Of a stretch of 36,807 bases of DNA, positions 5,712 to 16,291 are shown piece by piece. The notes below the pieces were generated by a model. It was not told the DNA's origin and ran no database searches. It worked only from the letters and a program-made list of their open reading frames with translations. Origin of the DNA: Candidatus Desulfaltia bathyphila (lineage in GTDB: Bacteria; Desulfobacterota; Desulfobacteria; Desulfobacterales; ETH-SRB1); the NCBI GenBank assembly GCA_014381545.1, contig JACNLL010000047.1:1-36807 (forward strand). The letters are read 5' to 3'. Each line of letters opens with the position of its first letter. The stretch's first letter is position 1. The position numbers and the translations under genes were made by a program.

Positions 5712-7448
5712 ATGGCTTTTAATGTTTTACTTTATACATCCCTGTTTGTCTTCATTTCCGGCGTTATCTACAAGATCTACACCTGGTTTTCCTGGGAAAT
5801 CGGCATTTCATCCAGAGATATCGACAGGTCCGAAAGACTATCTGCGGCTTTTAAAGGTATGCTGGAGGTAATTTTCAGCGCAAAGATCCTTATCCTGATT
5901 AAGGTATTTATCCTTGATGTAGTGTTTCAAAAAAGGATTCTTAAAGAGGATTTTCTCCGCTGGGCCATGCATATGCTCATATACACAGGTTTTATGTTAT
6001 TACTGCTCATGCATGCGCTTGACGAGCATATAACCGCCTCCCTGTTTAGCGAATATTACTCCACGTTAAATCCATTTTTCTTTCTAAGAAATTTTTTCAG
6101 CATGATGGTAATTGCCGGGCTGACAATCGCTATATACCGGCGCTTTATCCTGAAGGTGCCCCGCCTGAAAACAAACAGCATGGATTATTATGCTATAATC
6201 ATTCTAACTGTCATTATGATTTCCGGTTTTTTTCTTGAAGCAACGAAAATCACCTCTATCTCCGATTTTGAAAGGATGGTGGAAGAATTCTCAGATGTGG
6301 ATGAAAAGAAAGATATCAATGCGCTTGAAAGTCTGTGGGTCCATGCATTTGGTGTTGTTTCCCCGGATCTTAAGGAGCCCTTTGAGGAAAAGCTGCTTGA
6401 ATATGGCCGTGAAATCCACGAAATAAATTGCGCTTCCTGTCATTCTTCTCCAAAATGGGCATTTACAGGATATGCTCTGGCCAATATTCTAAATCCAATA
6501 GCTTTAAGACTTGACAGGGCAAAAGGCTCCAAAATTCTGTGGTATATTCATATACTGGCCTGTTTTTTCGGGCTGGCCTACCTTCCGTTCAGCAAGATGT
6601 TTCATATAATCGCCGGCCCGATAAGTTTGCTTGCCAATGCTGTTATGGAAAAGGATAAACCAGACCCTGCAAACATTGCAACAAGACAGGTGATGGAGCT
6701 GGATGCATGCACCCATTGCGGAACCTGCAGCCTTGGATGCTCCGCTGCAACGGCATTTGATGCTTTGGACAATGAAAATATTCTGCCCTCGGAAAAAATG
6801 GTCTCCCTAAAGAGCTTAATTGCCGGCAAAAAGATGAGTCCTGAAGAGTTAAAGGCCATCCAGGAGGGGGTCTGCCTTTGCACAAATTGTGATCGATGCA
6901 CCGTGGTTTGTCCTGTTGGTATCAATCTTAAGGAATTATGGCTTAACGTGCGGGAAGATTTAATCCAAAAAGGATATCCTGAACCGCTGCTCCTTTCTCC
7001 TTTTTCTTTTGTCAGAGGCTTAAACCGTTATGATATCCCGGCTGATGAGTATTATAAACCTGTTAATGCCGCAAAACAGGCAGTGGCAGGAAAATTTGAC
7101 TCGCTGATTAAGCAAAGCCCTCTGATTCTTCAGGGTGCAGGTATCGAAGAATTTAATCAATTAGCCAAAGACAATACATTTTCATATTGCTTTAGCTGTC
7201 AGAACTGCACCAGTGTATGCCCGGTGGTGTGCAGTTTTGACAAACCTGAAGAGACGCTGGGACTGCTGCCGCATCAAATTATGCGCTGCCTCGGCCTTGG
7301 CCTTATTGAAATGGCATCAGGTGCAAGTATGATCTGGGATTGTTTGACCTGTTATCAATGCCAGGAACACTGTCCACAGAACGTAAATGTCACCGATCTG
7401 TTTTTTGGATTAAAAAATCTTGCAATCAAAAATGTGAAAAAAGCATGA
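5712..7448 (+). CDS. Membrane-anchored HdrC-like protein: NarI-type cytochrome b, CXXCH, two ferredoxin modules
   Basis: Probably links a quinone or periplasmic redox pool to the cytoplasmic Hdr proteins encoded next. The N-terminal ~300 residues have about six hydrophobic segments. H280 and H298 are 18 apart, the spacing of the heme ligands in the last NarI helix, and H87/H101/H106 lie in or near an earlier helix. The loop before the last helix holds C240-A-S-C243-H244, a CXXCH heme-c motif predicted to be periplasmic. The C-terminus has four CX2CX2CX3C sets (C333-C343, C390-C400, C493-C503, C544-C554), which is two HdrC-like modules. I chose ATG 5712, which has CAGGAG 12 bases upstream, over the track's TTG at 5658. 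No CCG motif is present, so it is not an HdrD. Heme c attachment is inference. Confidence 0.8.
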   Translation: MAFNVLLYTSLFVFISGVIYKIYTWFSWEIGISSRDIDRSERLSAAFKGMLEVIFSAKILILIKVFILDVVFQKRILKEDFLRWAMHMLIYTGFMLLLLMHALDEHITASLFSEYYSTLNPFFFLRNFFSMMVIAGLTIAIYRRFILKVPRLKTNSMDYYAIIILTVIMISGFFLEATKITSISDFERMVEEFSDVDEKKDINALESLWVHAFGVVSPDLKEPFEEKLLEYGREIHEINCASCHSSPKWAFTGYALANILNPIALRLDRAKGSKILWYIHILACFFGLAYLPFSKMFHIIAGPISLLANAVMEKDKPDPANIATRQVMELDACTHCGTCSLGCSAATAFDALDNENILPSEKMVSLKSLIAGKKMSPEELKAIQEGVCLCTNCDRCTVVCPVGINLKELWLNVREDLIQKGYPEPLLLSPFSFVRGLNRYDIPADEYYKPVNAAKQAVAGKFDSLIKQSPLILQGAGIEEFNQLAKDNTFSYCFSCQNCTSVCPVVCSFDKPEETLGLLPHQIMRCLGLGLIEMASGASMIWDCLTCYQCQEHCPQNVNVTDLFFGLKNLAIKNVKKA

Positions 7449-7461
7449 TGGGGGTCGTTGA

Positions 7462-8328
7462 GTGATCAAATACGCATTATTTTTGGGCTGCAATATACCG
7501 GCAAGAGTAAGCCAGTATGAAGATTCTTCCAGGGCAGTTTTAAAGAATTTGGGTGTAGAGCTGATTGAAATCCGCAGCTTTAACTGTTGTGGTTATCCCC
7601 TGAAAAATATTGACCAAAAAGCATATCTTCTGTCTTCTGCCCAAAACCTGGCATTGGCTGAAAAGCAGGGCCTGAACATACTTACTCTGTGCAAATGCTG
7701 CTTTGGAAGTCTTAAAAAGGCTGAATATCTCCTCAAAGAAGATTTAAATCTACGGCAGGATGTAAACCACACGCTCGCTGATATTGGTTTGAAATATGAG
7801 GGCAATATTAGTGTAAAACATCTTCTTTCGGTACTTTATCATGATGTGGGCATTGATGCCATAAAAAGCAGGTTGTCAGGGTCATATAAAGAGCTCAGGA
7901 TTGCTGTCCATTATGGATGCCATGCCTTGCGTCCAAGCAGGATCACCCGGTTTGACAATCCAATTGCGCCCACGATATTTGATGAGCTCGTGGAGATAAC
8001 CGGCGCCGTATCTGTTGACTGGCCCCAAAAACTGGAATGCTGCGGAGCGCCTTTAACAGGGATAAATAATGATATCTCGATTAATTTGACAAAAAAGAAA
8101 GTATCGGATGCTAAAAAATCAGGCGCCGACTATCTGTGCACAGCCTGTCCATTCTGTCATCTGCAATTCGATTTTCTTCAAAAGAGGATGGTCGAAAATA
8201 ACGGGAACAGCGAACATCTTGCCTCTGTTCTTTATCCTCAACTTCTTGGGCTGTGTATGGGCATCGACAAAGAAACTCTTGGAATCGACATGAATCAACT
8301 TGAGGAACATGAAGATGCCAAAGGATAA
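7462..8328 (+). CDS. hdrB: HdrB-like heterodisulfide reductase subunit B
   Basis: Carries two CCG domains, which in HdrB hold non-cubane 4Fe-4S clusters that reduce or oxidise disulfides. The first domain is C10 ... C42-C43-G44 ... LCKCCFG; the second is HYGCHALRPS ... LECCGAPLTG ... LCTACPFCH. The 288-aa length is normal for HdrB. The start is GTG at 7462 behind a GGGGGT stretch, 13 bases after the HdrC-like gene. Its stop overlaps the start of hdrA. In a sulfate reducer the substrate might be the DsrC trisulfide/disulfide or another thiol carrier rather than CoM-S-S-CoB; that is inference, though dsrC lies downstream at 15.4 kb. Confidence 0.9.
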   Translation: MIKYALFLGCNIPARVSQYEDSSRAVLKNLGVELIEIRSFNCCGYPLKNIDQKAYLLSSAQNLALAEKQGLNILTLCKCCFGSLKKAEYLLKEDLNLRQDVNHTLADIGLKYEGNISVKHLLSVLYHDVGIDAIKSRLSGSYKELRIAVHYGCHALRPSRITRFDNPIAPTIFDELVEITGAVSVDWPQKLECCGAPLTGINNDISINLTKKKVSDAKKSGADYLCTACPFCHLQFDFLQKRMVENNGNSEHLASVLYPQLLGLCMGIDKETLGIDMNQLEEHEDAKG

Positions 8329-11300
8329 AACAGGCTCGGTTATGGTGATAGGCGCCGGAATCACCGGGATGCAGGCAGCATTGGATCTGGCTGATTCCGG
8401 TTATTATGTCTATCTTGTGGAAAGGTCAAGCTCAATCGGCGGAATGATGTCGCAATTAGATAAGACCTTTCCCACCAATGACTGCGCCATGTGTATTATA
8501 TCCCCTAAGCTGGTAGAAGTCGGCCGGCATATCAATATAGAGTTGCTAACCCTTTCTGAGGTAAACGGAATTTCCGGCGCCGAGGGGAATTTTGAGGTCA
8601 GTGTGACACAACATCCACGTTATGTGGATACTGATAAGTGCATTGCGTGCGGCTTGTGTGCCGAGAAGTGTCCCAAAAAAGTGCTTAATGAGTATGATGG
8701 CGGACTGAGTAAGCGCAAGGCGATTTATGTGAAATATCCCCAGGCTGTTCCGTTAAAATACACCATTGATGCAAAGAATTGTATCTACTTTAAAAAGGGA
8801 AAATGCAGAATATGCGAAAAATTCTGCCCCAATGAAGCTATCAATTTTGACGATCAGAAAAAGGAATTGACCCTGAAAGTAGGGGCTGTTGTCCTGGCCG
8901 TGGGAAGCAAGGTCTTTGACCCGGGAGTCCATGATACTTACGGCTACAGGAAATATCCCAATATTGTGACAAGCCTGGAATTTGAGAGGATTCTCTCTGC
9001 CTCAGGACCGTATGGCGGACACCTGGTTCGGCCATCAGATAAAAAAGAGCCCGAAAAAATTGCCTGGCTTCAATGTATAGGATCCAGAGATGAATGTCTC
9101 GGCGCCAAAGGATACTGCTCTGCTGTCTGCTGTACCTACGCCATTAAAGAGGCCATGCTGGCCAAAGAACACAGCAAAGAGCCGCTGGATACAGCCATTT
9201 TTTATATTGATATCCGCACGCATGGAAAAGACTTTGAGAGATATCTTAACCGCGCAAAGGATGAATCAGGAATCCGTTTTATCAAATCGAAAGTTACCGG
9301 CCTTCCACCGGTTAATGGAACAGAGAGGCATCTTATCCGCTATGTAGATGAGGCGGGCAAGAGAGTTGAAGAAGAATTTGATATGGTGGTGCTCTCCGTG
9401 GGCCTGGGCATAACCAGGGAATGTGCGGACCTGGCTCAAAAATTGGGCATCGAACTTGATCGCTATAATTTTGCAGCCACCAGCAGCTTTGAACCTGTCC
9501 GGAGCTCCAGACCGGGCATTTATGTTTGCGGCGCGTTTCAGGCTCCAAAGGATATTCCATCCTCGGTCATAGATTCCAGCGCAGCAGCAGGCGCGGTTGG
9601 GAGTAAATTAGCCGAGTCCAGGTGGACCCTGACAAGCACAAAACATATCCCTGAGGAGATTGATATCCGTGGAGAACCTCCCAGAATCGGCGTTTTTGTC
9701 TGCCGTTGCGGCACAAATATTGCGGGCACTGTTGATATCCCTCCTCTGGTTGAGTTTGCGCAAAGCCTGCCCTGTGTTGTCTATGCAGAAGAAAACATGT
9801 TCAGTTGCTCCCAGGACACCCAGGATAAAATAACCCTGGTTATCAAAGAGCAGCGATTGAATCGGGTGGTTGTCGCGGCTTGCACCCCTAAGACGCATGA
9901 ACCACTTTTTCAGGAGACATTAATCAATGCGGGCATTAATAAATACCTTTTTGAGATGGCTAATATCCGCAACCTGTGCTCCTGGGTACATAAGGATAAT
10001 CCCGAACAAGCTACTGAAAAGGCCAAAGATCTCATTAGAATGGCCGTGGCAAAGGTAGCCCTCTTTGAGCCCCTGACCGAACCTGTTATGCAGATTGATC
10101 AGAAGGCCCTTGTTATTGGTGGAGGCGTCGCAGGTATGGTGGCGGCTAAGAACCTGGCAGACCAGAACTACGTAACATACCTGATTGAAAAGACCGATGC
10201 TCTTGGCGGACAGGCGCGTCATCTGCATGAAACCTGGCGGGGTGAGGACATTCAACAATATTTATCCGGCCTGATAGAAAAAGTACAATCCGATAAAAAC
10301 ATAGATATATTTCTGAATTCCGAGATAGAACATGTGGACGGTTTTGTAGGGAATTTCAAAACAACGATCCAGCACAATGGCGAGAGCAAAGTCCTGGAAC
10401 ACGGGGTAACGATCATTGCGTCCGGCGCCTCGGCGCTCAAGCCGAACCAGTACCTTTACGGCGAAGACCCCCGTGTTGTAACAGGGTTGGAATTTCAGCA
10501 ACGACTAATTGACAACGATCCCTCGTTAGGACAGCTCAACACGGCTGTGTTTATACAATGCGTTGGTTCGCGCATCCCCCAGCGACCTTACTGCTCTAAG
10601 GTCTGCTGCACGCAGTCCATTAAAAGCGCCCTGAAGCTCAAAGAGATCAATCCCAAAATGAATATTTTTGTTCTTTACAGGGATATGCGATCCTATGGGC
10701 TGCGAGAAGATCTTTACCGGAAAGCGCGTTCAAGCGGGATTAACTTTGTCCGCTATGATTTTGACAAGGAGTTTACAGTAGCAGCCAAGCAGGGGGATTT
10801 ACAGGTTGCTTTCAATGATTGCGTGCTCAGGCGTCAGATGGAAATCCGGCCCGACCTTTTGATTCTGGCCTCTGCTATTGTCCCGGAAAAAAAGAATCCA
10901 TTGGCGCAGTTCTATAAAGTGCCGCAGAATGATGACGGTTTTTTCGTGGAAGCGCATGTCAAACTACGGCCTGTTGATTTTGCCACAGACGGCGTGTTCG
11001 TGTGCGGGCTTGCCCATGCCCCGAAAACGATAGATGAATCCATAACACAAGCTCAGGCAGCGGCGGCAAGAGCTGTTACGCTTCTGTCGGCAATAAGCAT
11101 CTCGGTGAGCGGCACAGTAGCTTATGTCAATCCAAACGACTGTAGCAGTTGCGGTGTGTGTGTATCTGTCTGCCCCTATTCTGCGCCGCAATTTAATGAC
11201 AAGAGCGGTAAGGCGGAAATACTGCCCACCCTGTGCAAAGGATGCGGTATATGCGTAGCTTCCTGCCGGTCCGGCGCCATCCATCTGAAGGGATTTGATA

Positions 11301-11350
11301 ACGACCAGATCTTCGCGCAAATCTTTGCGACGAATGAAGCGGTTTTTTAA
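8315..11350 (+). CDS. hdrA: Tandem (fused) HdrA: two FAD modules plus ferredoxin domains
   Basis: The flavin subunit of Hdr-type complexes, the electron-bifurcating centre in methanogens. The polypeptide contains two HdrA units. Unit 1 has VIGAGITGMQAALDLA, the CIACGLCAEKCP ferredoxin, a second Cys set CRICEKFCP, and the HdrA signature QCIGSRDECLGAKGYC...VCC. Unit 2 starts near VFVCRCGTNIAGTVDI and has VIGGGVAGMVAAKNLA and QCVGSRIPQRPYCSKVCC. A C-terminal 2x[4Fe-4S] domain (CSSCGVCVSVCP, CKGCGICVASC) ends the protein. About 1011 aa compares with roughly 650 for single HdrA proteins. I prefer ATG 8315, 8 bases after GAGGA, over TTG 8300; it overlaps hdrB by 14 bases. The architecture recalls a QmoA-QmoB-type pair on one chain. 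Whether it bifurcates is unknown. Confidence 0.9.
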   Translation: MPKDKTGSVMVIGAGITGMQAALDLADSGYYVYLVERSSSIGGMMSQLDKTFPTNDCAMCIISPKLVEVGRHINIELLTLSEVNGISGAEGNFEVSVTQHPRYVDTDKCIACGLCAEKCPKKVLNEYDGGLSKRKAIYVKYPQAVPLKYTIDAKNCIYFKKGKCRICEKFCPNEAINFDDQKKELTLKVGAVVLAVGSKVFDPGVHDTYGYRKYPNIVTSLEFERILSASGPYGGHLVRPSDKKEPEKIAWLQCIGSRDECLGAKGYCSAVCCTYAIKEAMLAKEHSKEPLDTAIFYIDIRTHGKDFERYLNRAKDESGIRFIKSKVTGLPPVNGTERHLIRYVDEAGKRVEEEFDMVVLSVGLGITRECADLAQKLGIELDRYNFAATSSFEPVRSSRPGIYVCGAFQAPKDIPSSVIDSSAAAGAVGSKLAESRWTLTSTKHIPEEIDIRGEPPRIGVFVCRCGTNIAGTVDIPPLVEFAQSLPCVVYAEENMFSCSQDTQDKITLVIKEQRLNRVVVAACTPKTHEPLFQETLINAGINKYLFEMANIRNLCSWVHKDNPEQATEKAKDLIRMAVAKVALFEPLTEPVMQIDQKALVIGGGVAGMVAAKNLADQNYVTYLIEKTDALGGQARHLHETWRGEDIQQYLSGLIEKVQSDKNIDIFLNSEIEHVDGFVGNFKTTIQHNGESKVLEHGVTIIASGASALKPNQYLYGEDPRVVTGLEFQQRLIDNDPSLGQLNTAVFIQCVGSRIPQRPYCSKVCCTQSIKSALKLKEINPKMNIFVLYRDMRSYGLREDLYRKARSSGINFVRYDFDKEFTVAAKQGDLQVAFNDCVLRRQMEIRPDLLILASAIVPEKKNPLAQFYKVPQNDDGFFVEAHVKLRPVDFATDGVFVCGLAHAPKTIDESITQAQAAAARAVTLLSAISISVSGTVAYVNPNDCSSCGVCVSVCPYSAPQFNDKSGKAEILPTLCKGCGICVASCRSGAIHLKGFDNDQIFAQIFATNEAVF

Positions 11351-11364
11351 AGGAGTTTTTCAGG

Positions 11365-11799
11365 ATGTCTGATTGGGAACCAAAAATTGTAGCTTTTTTA
11401 TGTAACTGGTGCAGCTATGGAGCCGCTGACCTTGCAGGTATCAACCGTCTGCAGTACCCAACCAATATCAAGGTCATCAGGATTCCCTGTACCGGACGGA
11501 TGAGCCCCAAGTTTATACTGGCTGCTTTTGGAAAAGGTGCGGACGGTGTTTGGGTATCAGGGTGCCATCCTGGAGACTGCCATTACATGGAAGGTAATTA
11601 TTACGCCCGTAGAAAGTTTACACTCTTTAAAAACCTCATAGAACATATGGGTATTGAGCCTGGCCGTCTCCATTTTTCATGGATCTCCTCGGCGGAGGGA
11701 ACAAGGTTTGCTGAAATCGCAAATAAAGTGACCAAAACAGTAAAGAACTTAGGATCTTCAAGGCATCTTATCAAGAAAATAAATGCTAAGGTAGATTAA
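11365..11799 (+). CDS. MvhD/FlxD-like hydrogenase iron-sulfur subunit
   Basis: A small 2Fe-2S protein of the MvhD family, which passes electrons from a hydrogenase, formate dehydrogenase or NADH module into HdrA. Motifs are FLCNWCSYGAADLAG near the N-terminus, IPCTGRM, and WVSGCHPGDCHY, the family's conserved cysteine sets. The 144-aa length is typical. It starts at ATG 11365 with a good AAGGAG 9 bases upstream, 14 bases after hdrA. Position and type match flxD of the FlxABCD-HdrABC complexes described in Desulfovibrio, where FlxD hands NADH-derived electrons to HdrA. Confidence 0.92.
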   Translation: MSDWEPKIVAFLCNWCSYGAADLAGINRLQYPTNIKVIRIPCTGRMSPKFILAAFGKGADGVWVSGCHPGDCHYMEGNYYARRKFTLFKNLIEHMGIEPGRLHFSWISSAEGTRFAEIANKVTKTVKNLGSSRHLIKKINAKVD

Positions 11800-11800
11800 C

Positions 11801-12745
11801 ATGTTAGGATATATAACCAAAATACGGGAAATATCAGAACGGCTCTTAAAAGAAGGCAAAGTGGATATGGTAATAGGTTTCCGCAAGGGAACCGTGCCGA
11901 TGATGAATGAGCCTTGTGTTGTTAAAAATCCCGAAAATGTAAAAGAGCTTGTGTGGGACAGCAATTGTGGCATCAACCTGGCAAACTATCTGACCGACAG
12001 AAAAGAAAAAATAGGTGTTGTTGCCAAGGGGTGCGATTCACGGAACATTGTCACCCATCTAATTGAAAACAAGATTAAAAGAGACCAACTGTTTATTATC
12101 GGAGTGCCATGCAAGGGGATGATTGACAGACACAAGATTACCTCAATGTTTGCAAAGGAAATAAAAGAGGTTGTAGAGGAGGAAAACAGGATCATTGTAA
12201 GGGGTGATGATTATGAGAAAATTTTTAAAAAAGCCGAGGTGTTGCAGGAAAACTGCGCAATATGCATCCATCGAAACCCTGTTATATACGATGAACTTGC
12301 TGCTGATCTTGTCGAAGAACAAAAGGATGTAGATAGATATGAGGATGTACGCCGAATTGAAGCCATGCCCGCTGAAAAAAAAGGGAATTATTTCGACAAT
12401 CTGCTCTCGGCCTGCATCCGTTGTTATGCATGCAGAAATGCATGCCCCCTTTGTTACTGCCTCACATGCTTTGTGGACGAATCCCGGCCCCAGTGGGTAG
12501 GTAAAAGCATAAACCCAACGGATATAAGAACATTCCATTTCTTAAGGGCCTATCATTGCGCGGGCAGGTGTACTGATTGCGGCGCCTGTGAGCGCGCATG
12601 TCCGATGGGCATAAAGGTAAGGGAATTCACTAAGAAACTGGAAAAAGATTGTTTTGAACTGTATGGCTGGGAGGCAGGTATGTCCTTAGATGAACGTCCG
12701 CCACTTGATACGTACAGACCTGACGATCCGGATTTTATAAAATAA
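11801..12745 (+). CDS. FrhB/FdhB-like ferredoxin protein (FlxC-like)
   Basis: An iron-sulfur electron-transfer subunit. The N-terminal ~190 residues resemble the coenzyme-F420 hydrogenase/formate dehydrogenase beta-type domain (VVAKGCDSRNIVTHL, IIGVPCKGMID), followed by CAICIHRNP. The C-terminal half has two ferredoxin sets, CIRCYACRNACPLCYC and CTDCGACERACPMGI. The 314-aa gene begins 1 base after the mvhD/flxD stop, so it is surely cotranscribed. By position and domain type it corresponds to FlxC of FlxABCD complexes; no F420 use is implied. After its stop comes a ~90-nt hairpin repeat before the next gene. Confidence 0.82.
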   Translation: MLGYITKIREISERLLKEGKVDMVIGFRKGTVPMMNEPCVVKNPENVKELVWDSNCGINLANYLTDRKEKIGVVAKGCDSRNIVTHLIENKIKRDQLFIIGVPCKGMIDRHKITSMFAKEIKEVVEEENRIIVRGDDYEKIFKKAEVLQENCAICIHRNPVIYDELAADLVEEQKDVDRYEDVRRIEAMPAEKKGNYFDNLLSACIRCYACRNACPLCYCLTCFVDESRPQWVGKSINPTDIRTFHFLRAYHCAGRCTDCGACERACPMGIKVREFTKKLEKDCFELYGWEAGMSLDERPPLDTYRPDDPDFIK

Positions 12746-12862: not shown

Positions 12863-13909
12863 ATGAAGGTCGTAAAAATTGACAAGAGGAATTGGGCCGG
12901 CAAACTTGAAAAATTGAAAGAGTCTTATCGATTGTTTGGCCCTGTTAAGGATAATGAATTCCACATCTTTGAAAGGCTCGACAAAGGTGAACTGCCGGAT
13001 TTTAATTATTTCAATACACGCCTTTCACCAAAATCGATTATTTATCCCCAATCTGAAACTATGCTTGAATTTTCTCTGGATAAAAGCAAAGAAAATCATC
13101 ATATATTGAAAGAGACAGATACGGATTGTTCGCCGCGGGCTGTAATCGGCATAAGACCTTGTGATGCAGCAGCTTTTTTATTAGTTAAACGCAACTTTGA
13201 TACTGCTGAGCACAAAGACCCATACTGGGTCAAGGCCTATGAAACAACCACATTTGTCGGGCTTGCATGCAACAACCCGCAAGCAACCTGTTTCTGCACA
13301 AGCGCCGGTTGCGGGCCTTTTTACGAAGAGGGGCTTGACCTGCTTCTTGTCGACATGGAAGATCATTATTTTGCAAAGATAATTACTTCAAAGGGAGAAA
13401 ATCTTTTAGAAGCTGCCGGCTGGAATACCGGGACTGATGCCGACCCTGCCGGAAAACAAATCAAAACCATGAAACAGGAAGCAGAGGCCAAAATAACCTC
13501 TTCTATTACCACTGATAAATTAAAGGACAAAACAACTACAGACCTTTTTGACGCGCCTTTTTGGGAAGAGGTAGCTTTTGCATGCATAAACTGCGGGACC
13601 TGCACATATGTTTGTCCGACATGCTGGTGCTTCGACATTCAGGATGAAGTGAACGGGTACTCAGGAATACGTATGCGGAACTGGGATAGCTGCATGTTTC
13701 CTCTTTTTACTCTCCATGGATCAGGCCACAACCCAAGAAGCACAAACATGCAGAGGGTCAGGCAGCGGTTTATGCACAAGCTGAAATATTATATGGACAA
13801 ATATGACAATGGGATTCAGTGTGTCGGATGCGGTCGATGCATACGTCTCTGTCCGGTAAATATCGATATACGAAAAGTTTGTGATTTGATGAACAGCTAC
13901 GGGGATTGA
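12863..13909 (+). CDS. 4Fe-4S dicluster protein, sulfhydrogenase-beta/AsrA-like (FlxB-like)
   Basis: An iron-sulfur subunit of the family that includes the beta subunit of archaeal sulfhydrogenase and AsrA of anaerobic sulfite reductase, and FlxB in sulfate reducers. It normally carries electrons between an FAD/NAD(P) subunit and a catalytic partner. Visible motifs are IGIRPCDAAAFLLVKR, the family signature, a central cysteine-rich segment NNPQATCFCTSAGCG, and two C-terminal clusters, CINCGTCTYVCPTCWC and CVGCGRCIRLCPVNIDI. The 348-aa length is standard. The start is ATG 12863, shortly after a weak AAAGG. It pairs with the FAD/NAD protein encoded next, although a 270-nt gap separates them. 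Confidence 0.85.
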   Translation: MKVVKIDKRNWAGKLEKLKESYRLFGPVKDNEFHIFERLDKGELPDFNYFNTRLSPKSIIYPQSETMLEFSLDKSKENHHILKETDTDCSPRAVIGIRPCDAAAFLLVKRNFDTAEHKDPYWVKAYETTTFVGLACNNPQATCFCTSAGCGPFYEEGLDLLLVDMEDHYFAKIITSKGENLLEAAGWNTGTDADPAGKQIKTMKQEAEAKITSSITTDKLKDKTTTDLFDAPFWEEVAFACINCGTCTYVCPTCWCFDIQDEVNGYSGIRMRNWDSCMFPLFTLHGSGHNPRSTNMQRVRQRFMHKLKYYMDKYDNGIQCVGCGRCIRLCPVNIDIRKVCDLMNSYGD

Positions 13910-14179: not shown

Positions 14180-15025
14180 ATGGTAAATCCATATCTGCCT
14201 TATCCGGTTCGAATCGACGAGATAATAACCGAAACCGAAGATAAAAATCTCAAGACATTCAGGCTGGTTTTTATAAACCCCGACGACGAAGAGAAATTTT
14301 CTTATAAAGCGGGTCAGTTTGCAGAGCTTTCCGTAGCAGGAAAAGGAGAAGTGCCTATAGGAATTGCCTCATCCCCTTCGGAAAAAGGATATCTGATGTT
14401 TACAATCAACAAGGTCGGGCTGGTTACAACCGCCCTCCATTGCATGAAACCGGGAGATATTATGGGTATTCGCGGGCCTCTCGGCAATAGTTATCCCTGG
14501 GATATTCTAAAAGGAAAAAATGTTGTGATAATAGGCGGCGGCTTTGCCTTTACCACGCTTCGCTCCTCTATAGTATATATGCTTGATCCTGTGAATCGCC
14601 CGAATCTCAAAGAAATCCATGTAATATACGGCGCTCGGTCTCCTGGTATGCTTTTATATAAGGATGAACTGGCTGCATGGGAATCACGTGATGATATTAA
14701 TATGCACATTACGGTCGACGGCACAGATGATCCAAACTGGAAATATAATGTCGGGTTTGTGCCGACCGTCACCGAACAGAAAGCGCCCCAGGGAAATGAT
14801 GATACATACGCCATTATTTGCGGCCCGCCGATTATGATAAAATTTACCCAGCCGGTATTAGAAAAGCTCGGCTATTGCCATGACAATATTATTATGTCCC
14901 TTGAAATGCGCATGAAATGCGGTATCGGAATTTGCGGCAGGTGCAATATCGGAAAAGAATTTGTATGCAAAGATGGGCCAATTTTTACGCTGGCCCGGTT
15001 AAACGAAATGCCAAAGGAATATTGA
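14180..15025 (+). CDS. FAD/NAD(P)-binding 2Fe-2S oxidoreductase (FlxA/AsrB-like)
   Basis: The pyridine-nucleotide-facing subunit of the locus, of the ferredoxin-NADP reductase-like family that includes sulfhydrogenase gamma, AsrB and FlxA. An FAD domain comes first (GQFAELSV, PIGIASSPS). The NAD(P) domain follows (VVIIGGGFAFTTLRS, IICGPPIM), with a C-terminal [2Fe-2S] site at MKCGIGICGRC...FVC. I chose ATG 14180, which has CCAGGAG 6 bases upstream, giving 281 aa; the track's TTG at 14123 has no such support. It probably oxidises NADH, or reduces NAD+, and relays electrons through FlxB/C/D to the tandem HdrA. NADH versus NADPH preference cannot be judged. Confidence 0.88.
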   Translation: MVNPYLPYPVRIDEIITETEDKNLKTFRLVFINPDDEEKFSYKAGQFAELSVAGKGEVPIGIASSPSEKGYLMFTINKVGLVTTALHCMKPGDIMGIRGPLGNSYPWDILKGKNVVIIGGGFAFTTLRSSIVYMLDPVNRPNLKEIHVIYGARSPGMLLYKDELAAWESRDDINMHITVDGTDDPNWKYNVGFVPTVTEQKAPQGNDDTYAIICGPPIMIKFTQPVLEKLGYCHDNIIMSLEMRMKCGIGICGRCNIGKEFVCKDGPIFTLARLNEMPKEY

Positions 15026-15427: not shown

Positions 15428-15745
15428 ATGGAAACTATTGAATACATGGGTAAAACATTTAGCGTAGATGAGGACGGGTTTATTGATGATTTTAATAACT
15501 GGTGTCCTGAGTGGGAACAGTGGGTAAAAACTGTAGAGGGTATTGAGGAGATAAATGATGAGCACAGGAAGCTTGTCACGGTTCTTCGCGATTATTATGA
15601 AAAAAACGGAATTGCTCCGATGGTTCGGATACTTTCCAAGGTTACAGGATTCAAACTGAAACATATATATGAGCTTTATCCGTCCGGACCAGGCAAAGGA
15701 GCATGTAAGATGGCCGGTCTTCCAAAACCTACAGGATGCGTCTAA
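15428..15745 (+). CDS. dsrC: DsrC, sulfur-carrier protein of dissimilatory sulfite reduction
   Basis: A small thiol carrier that accepts sulfite-derived sulfur from DsrAB as a trisulfide and is re-reduced by the DsrMKJOP membrane complex. The C-terminal arm GACKMAGLPKPTGCV has C93 and C104 with ten residues between, and the last cysteine is penultimate. This is true DsrC rather than single-Cys TusE. The N-terminus (MGKTFSVDEDGFI) and GIAPMVRILSK are also family-typical; 105 aa is normal. It appears monocistronic, with its own TTGACA promoter, a strong Shine-Dalgarno sequence and a strong terminator at 15784-15817, which suggests high expression. dsrAB is not in the window, as is common for detached dsrC genes. 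Confidence 0.96.
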   Translation: METIEYMGKTFSVDEDGFIDDFNNWCPEWEQWVKTVEGIEEINDEHRKLVTVLRDYYEKNGIAPMVRILSKVTGFKLKHIYELYPSGPGKGACKMAGLPKPTGCV

Positions 15746-15835: not shown

Positions 15836-16291
15836 ATGTCTTCAATGGATGACATAGACAGGGAAATTCTAAACAGGATACAGTCCGACTTTCCGATAAC
15901 CTCCCGCCCCTATCTTGTCGTGGCAAATAATCTGGGTCTTTCCGAAGATGATGTTTTAAAGCGTCTTGCCAGGTTGAAGGAAAAAAGGATTATTAGACGA
16001 ATAGGGGGCAACTTTGTCCCTGAAAAATTAGGATTTGTCAGCACTCTCTGCGCAGCAAAAGTGCCGGAAGATAAAATTGAATTTTTTGCCAAGGAAGTCA
16101 ACGGCTATCCGGGAGTAACTCATAATTATAAGCGGGACAACAGGTATAATATATGGTTTACCTTTATTGCTCCATCCATGGAGGAAATAGAGGAAAATCT
16201 TGCAAAGATCTCCAGCAAAACAGGAATAACAGATATTATCAATCTGCCTGCAACAAAGGTTTTTAAGATAAAGGCTCACTTTGACCTATAG
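15836..16291 (+). CDS. ahbA: Siroheme decarboxylase subunit AhbA (Lrp/AsnC-like)
   Basis: With AhbB, decarboxylates siroheme to didecarboxysiroheme in the alternative heme pathway of sulfate reducers and archaea. It has an N-terminal Lrp/AsnC-type helix-turn-helix (DIDREILNRIQSDFP ... RPYLVVANNLGLSEDD) that is catalytic-family, not regulatory. The signature GVTHNYKRDNRYNIWFTFIA includes the conserved His-Asn-Tyr, and NLPATKVFKIK follows. RRIGGNFVPEKLGF and the HNY segment fit AhbA/NirD-type better than AhbB, which usually has an HCYQR-type segment. 151 aa is typical. It starts just after the dsrC terminator and is followed closely by a nitrilase-family gene. No ahbB, C or D is seen here. Confidence 0.8.
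   Translation: MSSMDDIDREILNRIQSDFPITSRPYLVVANNLGLSEDDVLKRLARLKEKRIIRRIGGNFVPEKLGFVSTLCAAKVPEDKIEFFAKEVNGYPGVTHNYKRDNRYNIWFTFIAPSMEEIEENLAKISSKTGITDIINLPATKVFKIKAHFDL

Follow-up and report, generated by a model that had tools for sequence, protein, structure and literature searches.

HdrC is usually a soluble, cytoplasmic subunit that carries electrons. In an operon of Candidatus Desulfaltia bathyphila, the leading gene encodes an HdrC fused to a membrane-bound cytochrome b with a CXXCH motif in one of its loops, which raises the question of what this protein does at the membrane and how the Hdr and Flx proteins encoded behind it might be connected to it. The window analyzed here is the whole stretch of 36,807 nucleotides of contig JACNLL010000047.1. 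The operon lies on one strand and is led by the gene for the fusion protein, here denoted HdrC*, in the order hdrC*-hdrB-hdrA-mvhD-flxC-flxB-flxA-dsrC:

5712..7448, + strand: HdrC*, 578 aa; NarI-type, predicted diheme cytochrome b with a putative heme-c loop and two ferredoxin modules
7462..8328, + strand: HdrB, two CCG domains (E = 1e-65 to archaeal HdrB)
8318..11350, + strand: HdrA, 1010 aa, two flavin domains, without the archaeal N-terminal domain
11365..11799, + strand: MvhD/FlpD, in the position of FlxD
11801..12745, + strand: FlxC-like Fe-S protein (the letter being presumably that of the D. vulgaris operon)
12863..13909, + strand: FlxB-like Fe-S protein (HydB/AsrA family)
14183..15025, + strand: FlxA-like FAD/NAD(P)-binding subunit (HydG/AsrB family)
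15428..15745, + strand: DsrC with both C-terminal cysteines

The hdrC* reading frame starts at an ATG at position 5712 that matches the starts of its homologues and has an AGGAG upstream. A preliminary description of the locus had proposed that 5712–7448 encodes a NarI-like cytochrome b fused to an HdrC-type protein, and this was borne out by the open reading frame and its Pfam domains: the protein matched NarI (PF02665) at 25.6 bits, compared to a cut-off of 22.9, as well as dicluster ferredoxin modules. A five-helix membrane part of the NarI/EtfD type, interrupted by an insert of ≈90 residues, is followed by two ferredoxin modules. The following features were located within HdrC*:

5970..5972, + strand: H87 in TM2, candidate heme b ligand on the cytoplasmic side (by analogy with NarI)
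6012..6014, + strand: H101 in TM2, candidate heme b ligand on the periplasmic side
6252..6524, + strand: predicted periplasmic insert, residues 181–271, acidic and all-helical, presumed mono-heme c domain
6276..6278, + strand: M189, candidate sixth ligand of heme c
6429..6443, + strand: CASCH, residues 240–244, predicted heme c attachment site
6549..6551, + strand: H280 in TM5, candidate heme b ligand on the periplasmic side
6603..6605, + strand: H298 in TM5, candidate heme b ligand on the cytoplasmic side
6696..6923, + strand: ferredoxin module 1, residues 329–404, SdhB/HmcF/TmcB-like
7173..7439, + strand: ferredoxin module 2, residues 488–576, HdrC-like

Both ferredoxin modules had initially been described as complete and HdrC-like. 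Two modules are indeed present, but they are not equivalent, and only the second is truly HdrC-like: residues 465–577 match archaeal HdrC (8rvu, E = 3e-17), and module 2 also resembles the N-terminus of QmoC, whereas module 1 is similar to the modules of SdhB, TfrB, HmcF and TmcB. These similarities suggest that module 2 may take the role of HdrC between HdrA and HdrB, while module 1 would provide the link to heme b.

Five transmembrane (TM) helices are predicted in HdrC*, as in NarI, at about residues 2–27, 81–102, 122–147, 156–181 and 272–293. The six hydrophobic segments of the preliminary description hold as a count of segments, but not as a topology, since the additional one is a weaker segment around residues 50–71 that fits a cytoplasmic amphipathic helix (residues 58–71 in the model). 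Averaged over the family, loops 20–49 and 142–159 carry 5.2 Lys/Arg residues each, compared to 0.6 in loop 104–122, and loop 179–248 has 14.7 acidic versus 5.5 basic residues. An AlphaFold model of residues 1–320, based on 96 sequences, had a pLDDT of 92 and a pTM of 0.87, with the helices of the loop included. (A model of the full chain from 22 sequences was poor, with a pLDDT of 55, and was set aside; the path from heme b to HdrC lies outside the model used.) The closest solved fold for the membrane part was Mycobacterium EtfD (9ojn, E = 9e-4), followed more weakly by NarI (E = 0.2–1). Because of the positive-inside charge pattern and the match of the modeled fold to EtfD and NarI, the loop with the CXXCH motif is predicted to lie on the outer side of the membrane, where it had been placed earlier pending topology prediction and structure modeling.

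TM2 and the last helix, TM5, each contain a pair of histidines, H87/H101 and H280/H298, the latter just as originally noted, and all four are invariant in the family. Together with the Pfam score and the fold match, these pairs identify the membrane part as a relative of NarI, the nitrate reductase gamma subunit. By analogy with NarI, H87 and H298 would bind an inner heme b, and H101 and H280 an outer one.

The CASCH sequence that had been noticed in the loop before the last helix is present at residues 240–244 and is the sole CXXCH of HdrC*. When the 320-residue membrane part, with its 3 Cys and 8 His, was shuffled, a CXXCH arose by chance with p = 0.0004, but conservation in the family is far stronger evidence. 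A GTDB-wide scan yielded 80 loci, 51–90% identical, from MAGs and isolates of Desulfobacterales or other delta-/Desulfobacterota type. One of these (L084) was frameshifted, leaving 80 usable alignment rows (79 loci and the window), and C240, C243 and H244 were present in all 80. Of 297 Desulfobacterota genomes sampled, 40 carry the family, with scores of at least 235 bits, separated by a gap from other NarI proteins, which scored at most 104 bits and matched mainly residues 9–181. (Two 70-residue fragments at contig edges, with ≈78 bits, are pieces of the HdrC* family.) The motif was found in 113/113 family members, including the most distant ones at about 33–35% identity, and its XX residues vary freely (AS, AE, MD, QS, VE, AY, LD, AP and others). 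The search profile itself includes the CXXCH and might favor motif-bearing members; however, the score gap and the variety of XX make this an unlikely explanation. Conservation of these three residues, on which the preliminary description had staked its reading, is thus complete, as expected for a c-type cytochrome.

Elsewhere in the loop, M189 and W209 are each kept in 105/106 sequences. The exception at position 189 (L070) has His, which could also serve as a heme ligand. H236 was considered as the sixth ligand and dropped, being conserved in only 84/106. Since M189 is nearly invariant and H236 is not general, H244/M189 is the most likely ligand pair. Compared with sequences in the PDB, the loop gave no significant match; its only hits (E = 0.14) were heme subunits of flavocytochrome c. 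From the conserved residues, we infer that a heme c is covalently attached to the loop.

Two homologues put this loop into perspective. The EtfD/EMO-like homologue L106, in which CCG domains are part of the chain, has neither the heme-c loop nor a CXXCH; the loop is thus a specific feature of the HdrC* family. In L099, the membrane protein is a chain of b561, seven CXXCH and NarI parts, followed by separate HdrC, HdrB and HdrA proteins, of which HdrC shares 51% identity with the C-terminal half of HdrC*. In this related complex, the periplasmic c-heme part is thus replaced and not lost. The L099 protein (6059–9944) belongs to a family of multiheme cytochrome c–NarI proteins in Desulfobacterota that also includes L098, L100, L101, L102, L103, L105 and L107, with seven or more CXXCH and, in some, a b561 N-terminus; the one in L101 adjoins a ferredoxin–CCG protein. 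At another locus (L147, 7030–10070), RnfB- and RnfC-like genes flank a gene for a multiheme cytochrome c, and a TmcB/TmcC-like pair lies nearby.

The DsrC encoded at the end of the operon retains GPGKGACKMAGLPKPTGCV with both cysteines, and no other DsrC was found in the genome. The genome also encodes DsrA, HmcEF, a TmcB-like protein, QrcAB and several c3-type cytochromes, and has cytochrome c machinery in the form of CcsB beside QrcA/B and a second cytochrome c assembly protein. Directly 3' of dsrC is a gene for the siroheme decarboxylase AhbA (window 15836–16291), and heme synthesis from siroheme may therefore be co-transcribed with the putative heme protein HdrC*. Near the operon, the window also contains a UbiD-type menaquinone biosynthesis decarboxylase (TIGR03701, 87–1715), which would fit an electron transport chain based on menaquinone.

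In Desulfobacterota as a whole, hdrC*-hdrB forms a nearly constant core, while the other partners vary. The family occurs in the isolates Desulfatitalea alkaliphila M08but and strain NaphS2, and Eth-SRB1 carries a homologue that is 89% identical. In nearly all loci that are long enough, hdrB lies directly downstream of hdrC*, the exceptions being L039 and L061. In counts based on a defined panel of query proteins, and affected by how long each contig is, 24 loci with >6 kb downstream have no recognizable partner beyond hdrB, 44 have hdrA alone or cut by the contig end, 16 have Flx partners, often with dsrC at the end, and 7 have NuoE-NuoF-(NuoG/HdrA). L141 and L059 have MvhD-MetV-MetF together with hdrA, and MetV and MetF of L141 were confirmed by Pfam. 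(A universal link to MetVF was considered and dropped, as these genes are clearly co-directional only in L141 and L059.) In L040, hdrC* lies within an acetyl-CoA synthase cluster with CdhD and a pterin-binding methyltransferase. DsrC follows flxA also in L013, L047, L056, L062, L070 and L087; none was found near the NuoEF-type and minimal loci. Since DsrC occurs in every genome tested, its presence alone says little. As many members have only hdrC*-hdrB, coupling to HdrA/Flx is not a universal function.

Some of these loci also differ in HdrA itself. Between hdrB and nuoE in L019, L022, L025, L080 and L114 is a short ORF (≈115 aa) that corresponds to the flavin-binding N-terminal part of HdrA; its in-frame TGA, at CAM*IISP, probably encodes selenocysteine. 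In L018, the gene after nuoF encodes a NuoG-like domain fused to the remainder of HdrA; HdrA thus appears to be split in two in the NuoEF-type loci. The HdrA and MvhD copies in the window use Cys at CAMC and VSGC, where many relatives (L086, 10830–13946 and from 13963; L009, L057, L070) have an in-frame TGA, as do the known selenocysteine variants of D. autotrophicum.

Taken as a whole, we think it likely that HdrC* acts as a membrane-spanning electron hub, joining the HdrB/HdrA modules to cytochrome c in the periplasm and probably also to menaquinone. A covalent heme c in the periplasmic loop would exchange electrons with periplasmic c-type cytochromes. The two hemes b would provide the route through the membrane and probably a point of exchange with menaquinone as well. 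Ferredoxin module 1 and HdrC module 2 would pass electrons to soluble HdrB, whose CCG sites would either donate electrons to a disulfide carrier in the cytoplasm or accept them from it; the DsrC of the operon is the most likely candidate for this carrier. HdrA-MvhD-Flx would dock on the HdrB/HdrC unit, thereby tying a normally soluble bifurcating complex to the membrane and providing a connection to NAD(H) and, probably through the HdrA flavin, to ferredoxin. The direction of flow is probably reversible: inflow would feed DsrC and CO2 fixation, while outflow would dispose of NADH. We also entertain, with less conviction than doubt, the broader idea that this single chain of heme c, heme b and Fe-S couples flavin-based electron bifurcation, by HdrA together with Flx, NuoEF or MetVF, directly to two pools, periplasmic cytochrome c and menaquinone. 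The membrane potential would then drive or control bifurcation, and the cytoplasmic enzymes would be swapped on a constant hdrC*-hdrB core.

EtfD, the closest solved fold, is a quinone-linked enzyme, and a menaquinone decarboxylase is encoded within the window. Conceivably, then, HdrC* could be an anchor serving quinone only, like EtfD/EMO or QmoC, in which electrons pass from menaquinone through the hemes b to HdrB/HdrA, and heme c is a structural element or an auxiliary relay without a periplasmic partner. We consider this rather unlikely, as the loop and CXXCH that are absent from L106 are kept without exception in the HdrC* family, and the cousin L099 has seven predicted c-type hemes next to HdrC/HdrB/HdrA.

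Two other explanations concern the loop itself. The insignificant similarity of the loop to known cytochromes, and the indirect nature of the assignment of heme c, would fit a CXXCH that is a disulfide or metal site in a loop with another function. The two Cys and the His, invariant beside freely varying XX positions, the predicted outside location, the conserved Met (once His) as a possible sixth ligand and the cytochrome c synthesis genes in the genome make this improbable. Least probable is a cytoplasmic loop, with HdrC* exchanging electrons only inside the cell. The topology is a predicted one, and the weak segment at 50–71 could be a sixth helix; however, this helix would shift the N-terminus and not the loop, because the Fe-S end has to lie inside to meet HdrB. 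The positive-inside pattern and the acidity of the long loop also argue against it, and attachment of heme c takes place on the outer side of the membrane.

If HdrC* is indeed such a hub, a single polypeptide would be able to conduct electrons through the full membrane and deliver them to several different enzymes of the cytoplasm. The built-in link bears on the question of what joins Hdr-type bifurcating complexes to the membrane, and HdrC* offers a single protein for finding out if cytochromes of the periplasm supply electrons to, or withdraw them from, NADH, ferredoxin, DsrC and C1 metabolism in sulfate reducers. The component families are all known; as far as could be checked, their combination and modular use are new. 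No description of a fusion of NarI cytochrome b, heme-c loop and HdrC was found in the literature titles, abstracts and passages searched, although the likeliest sources lie outside that scope and novelty is unproven. HdrF of Desulfobacterium autotrophicum came into question as a family member described before, but was set aside, as the text on it describes no heme c site (PMC2702500).

Among known systems, QmoC also combines an HdrC-like with a cytochrome b-like part in a single chain, but in the opposite order, a contrast that had been pointed out from the start and that holds; HdrC* scored 68.7 bits with the QmoC model NF038018, compared to a cut-off of 300. EtfD, of the EtfAB:quinone oxidoreductases (EMO), shares the fold and the placement of the NarI part before the Fe-S part. 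The CCG motifs of this type, described at the outset as absent, gave no Pfam match in HdrC*, whereas L106 has them and lacks the heme-c loop. TmcABCD, HmcEF and DsrMKJOP resemble the proposed path from periplasmic c heme through NarI-type b hemes and Fe-S to CCG and probably DsrC, and Hmc/Tmc-type genes are present in the same genome. In these complexes, however, the c hemes, cytochrome b and ferredoxin/CCG are on separate subunits, with ferredoxin and CCG fused, whereas HdrC* has the c, b and ferredoxin parts on one chain, with CCG (HdrB) separate; its scores for TmcB, HmcF and DsrK were 25.9, 33.3 and 21.1 bits, compared to cut-offs of 735, 750 and 400. The multiheme c–NarI proteins (L099, L101) have a homologous NarI part, but with seven CXXCH ahead of it and an unfused HdrC.

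The cytoplasmic subunits are those of the NADH-linked FlxABCD-HdrABC of Desulfovibrio vulgaris, with HdrA, HdrB, an MvhD-like protein and Flx together in the operon, along with DsrC as probable partner. That complex is treated as soluble and cytoplasmic, with DsrC as its probable partner (PMC5539420, PMC10553843), whereas here HdrC is fused to five predicted TM helices of a predicted diheme cytochrome b with a heme-c loop. For HdrCBA-MvhD-MetVF of Sporomusa ovata, a membrane-integral partner could not be identified (PMC9430772). L141 and L059 carry hdrC*-hdrB with hdrA, mvhD, metV and metF, and in these loci the membrane link is built into HdrC.
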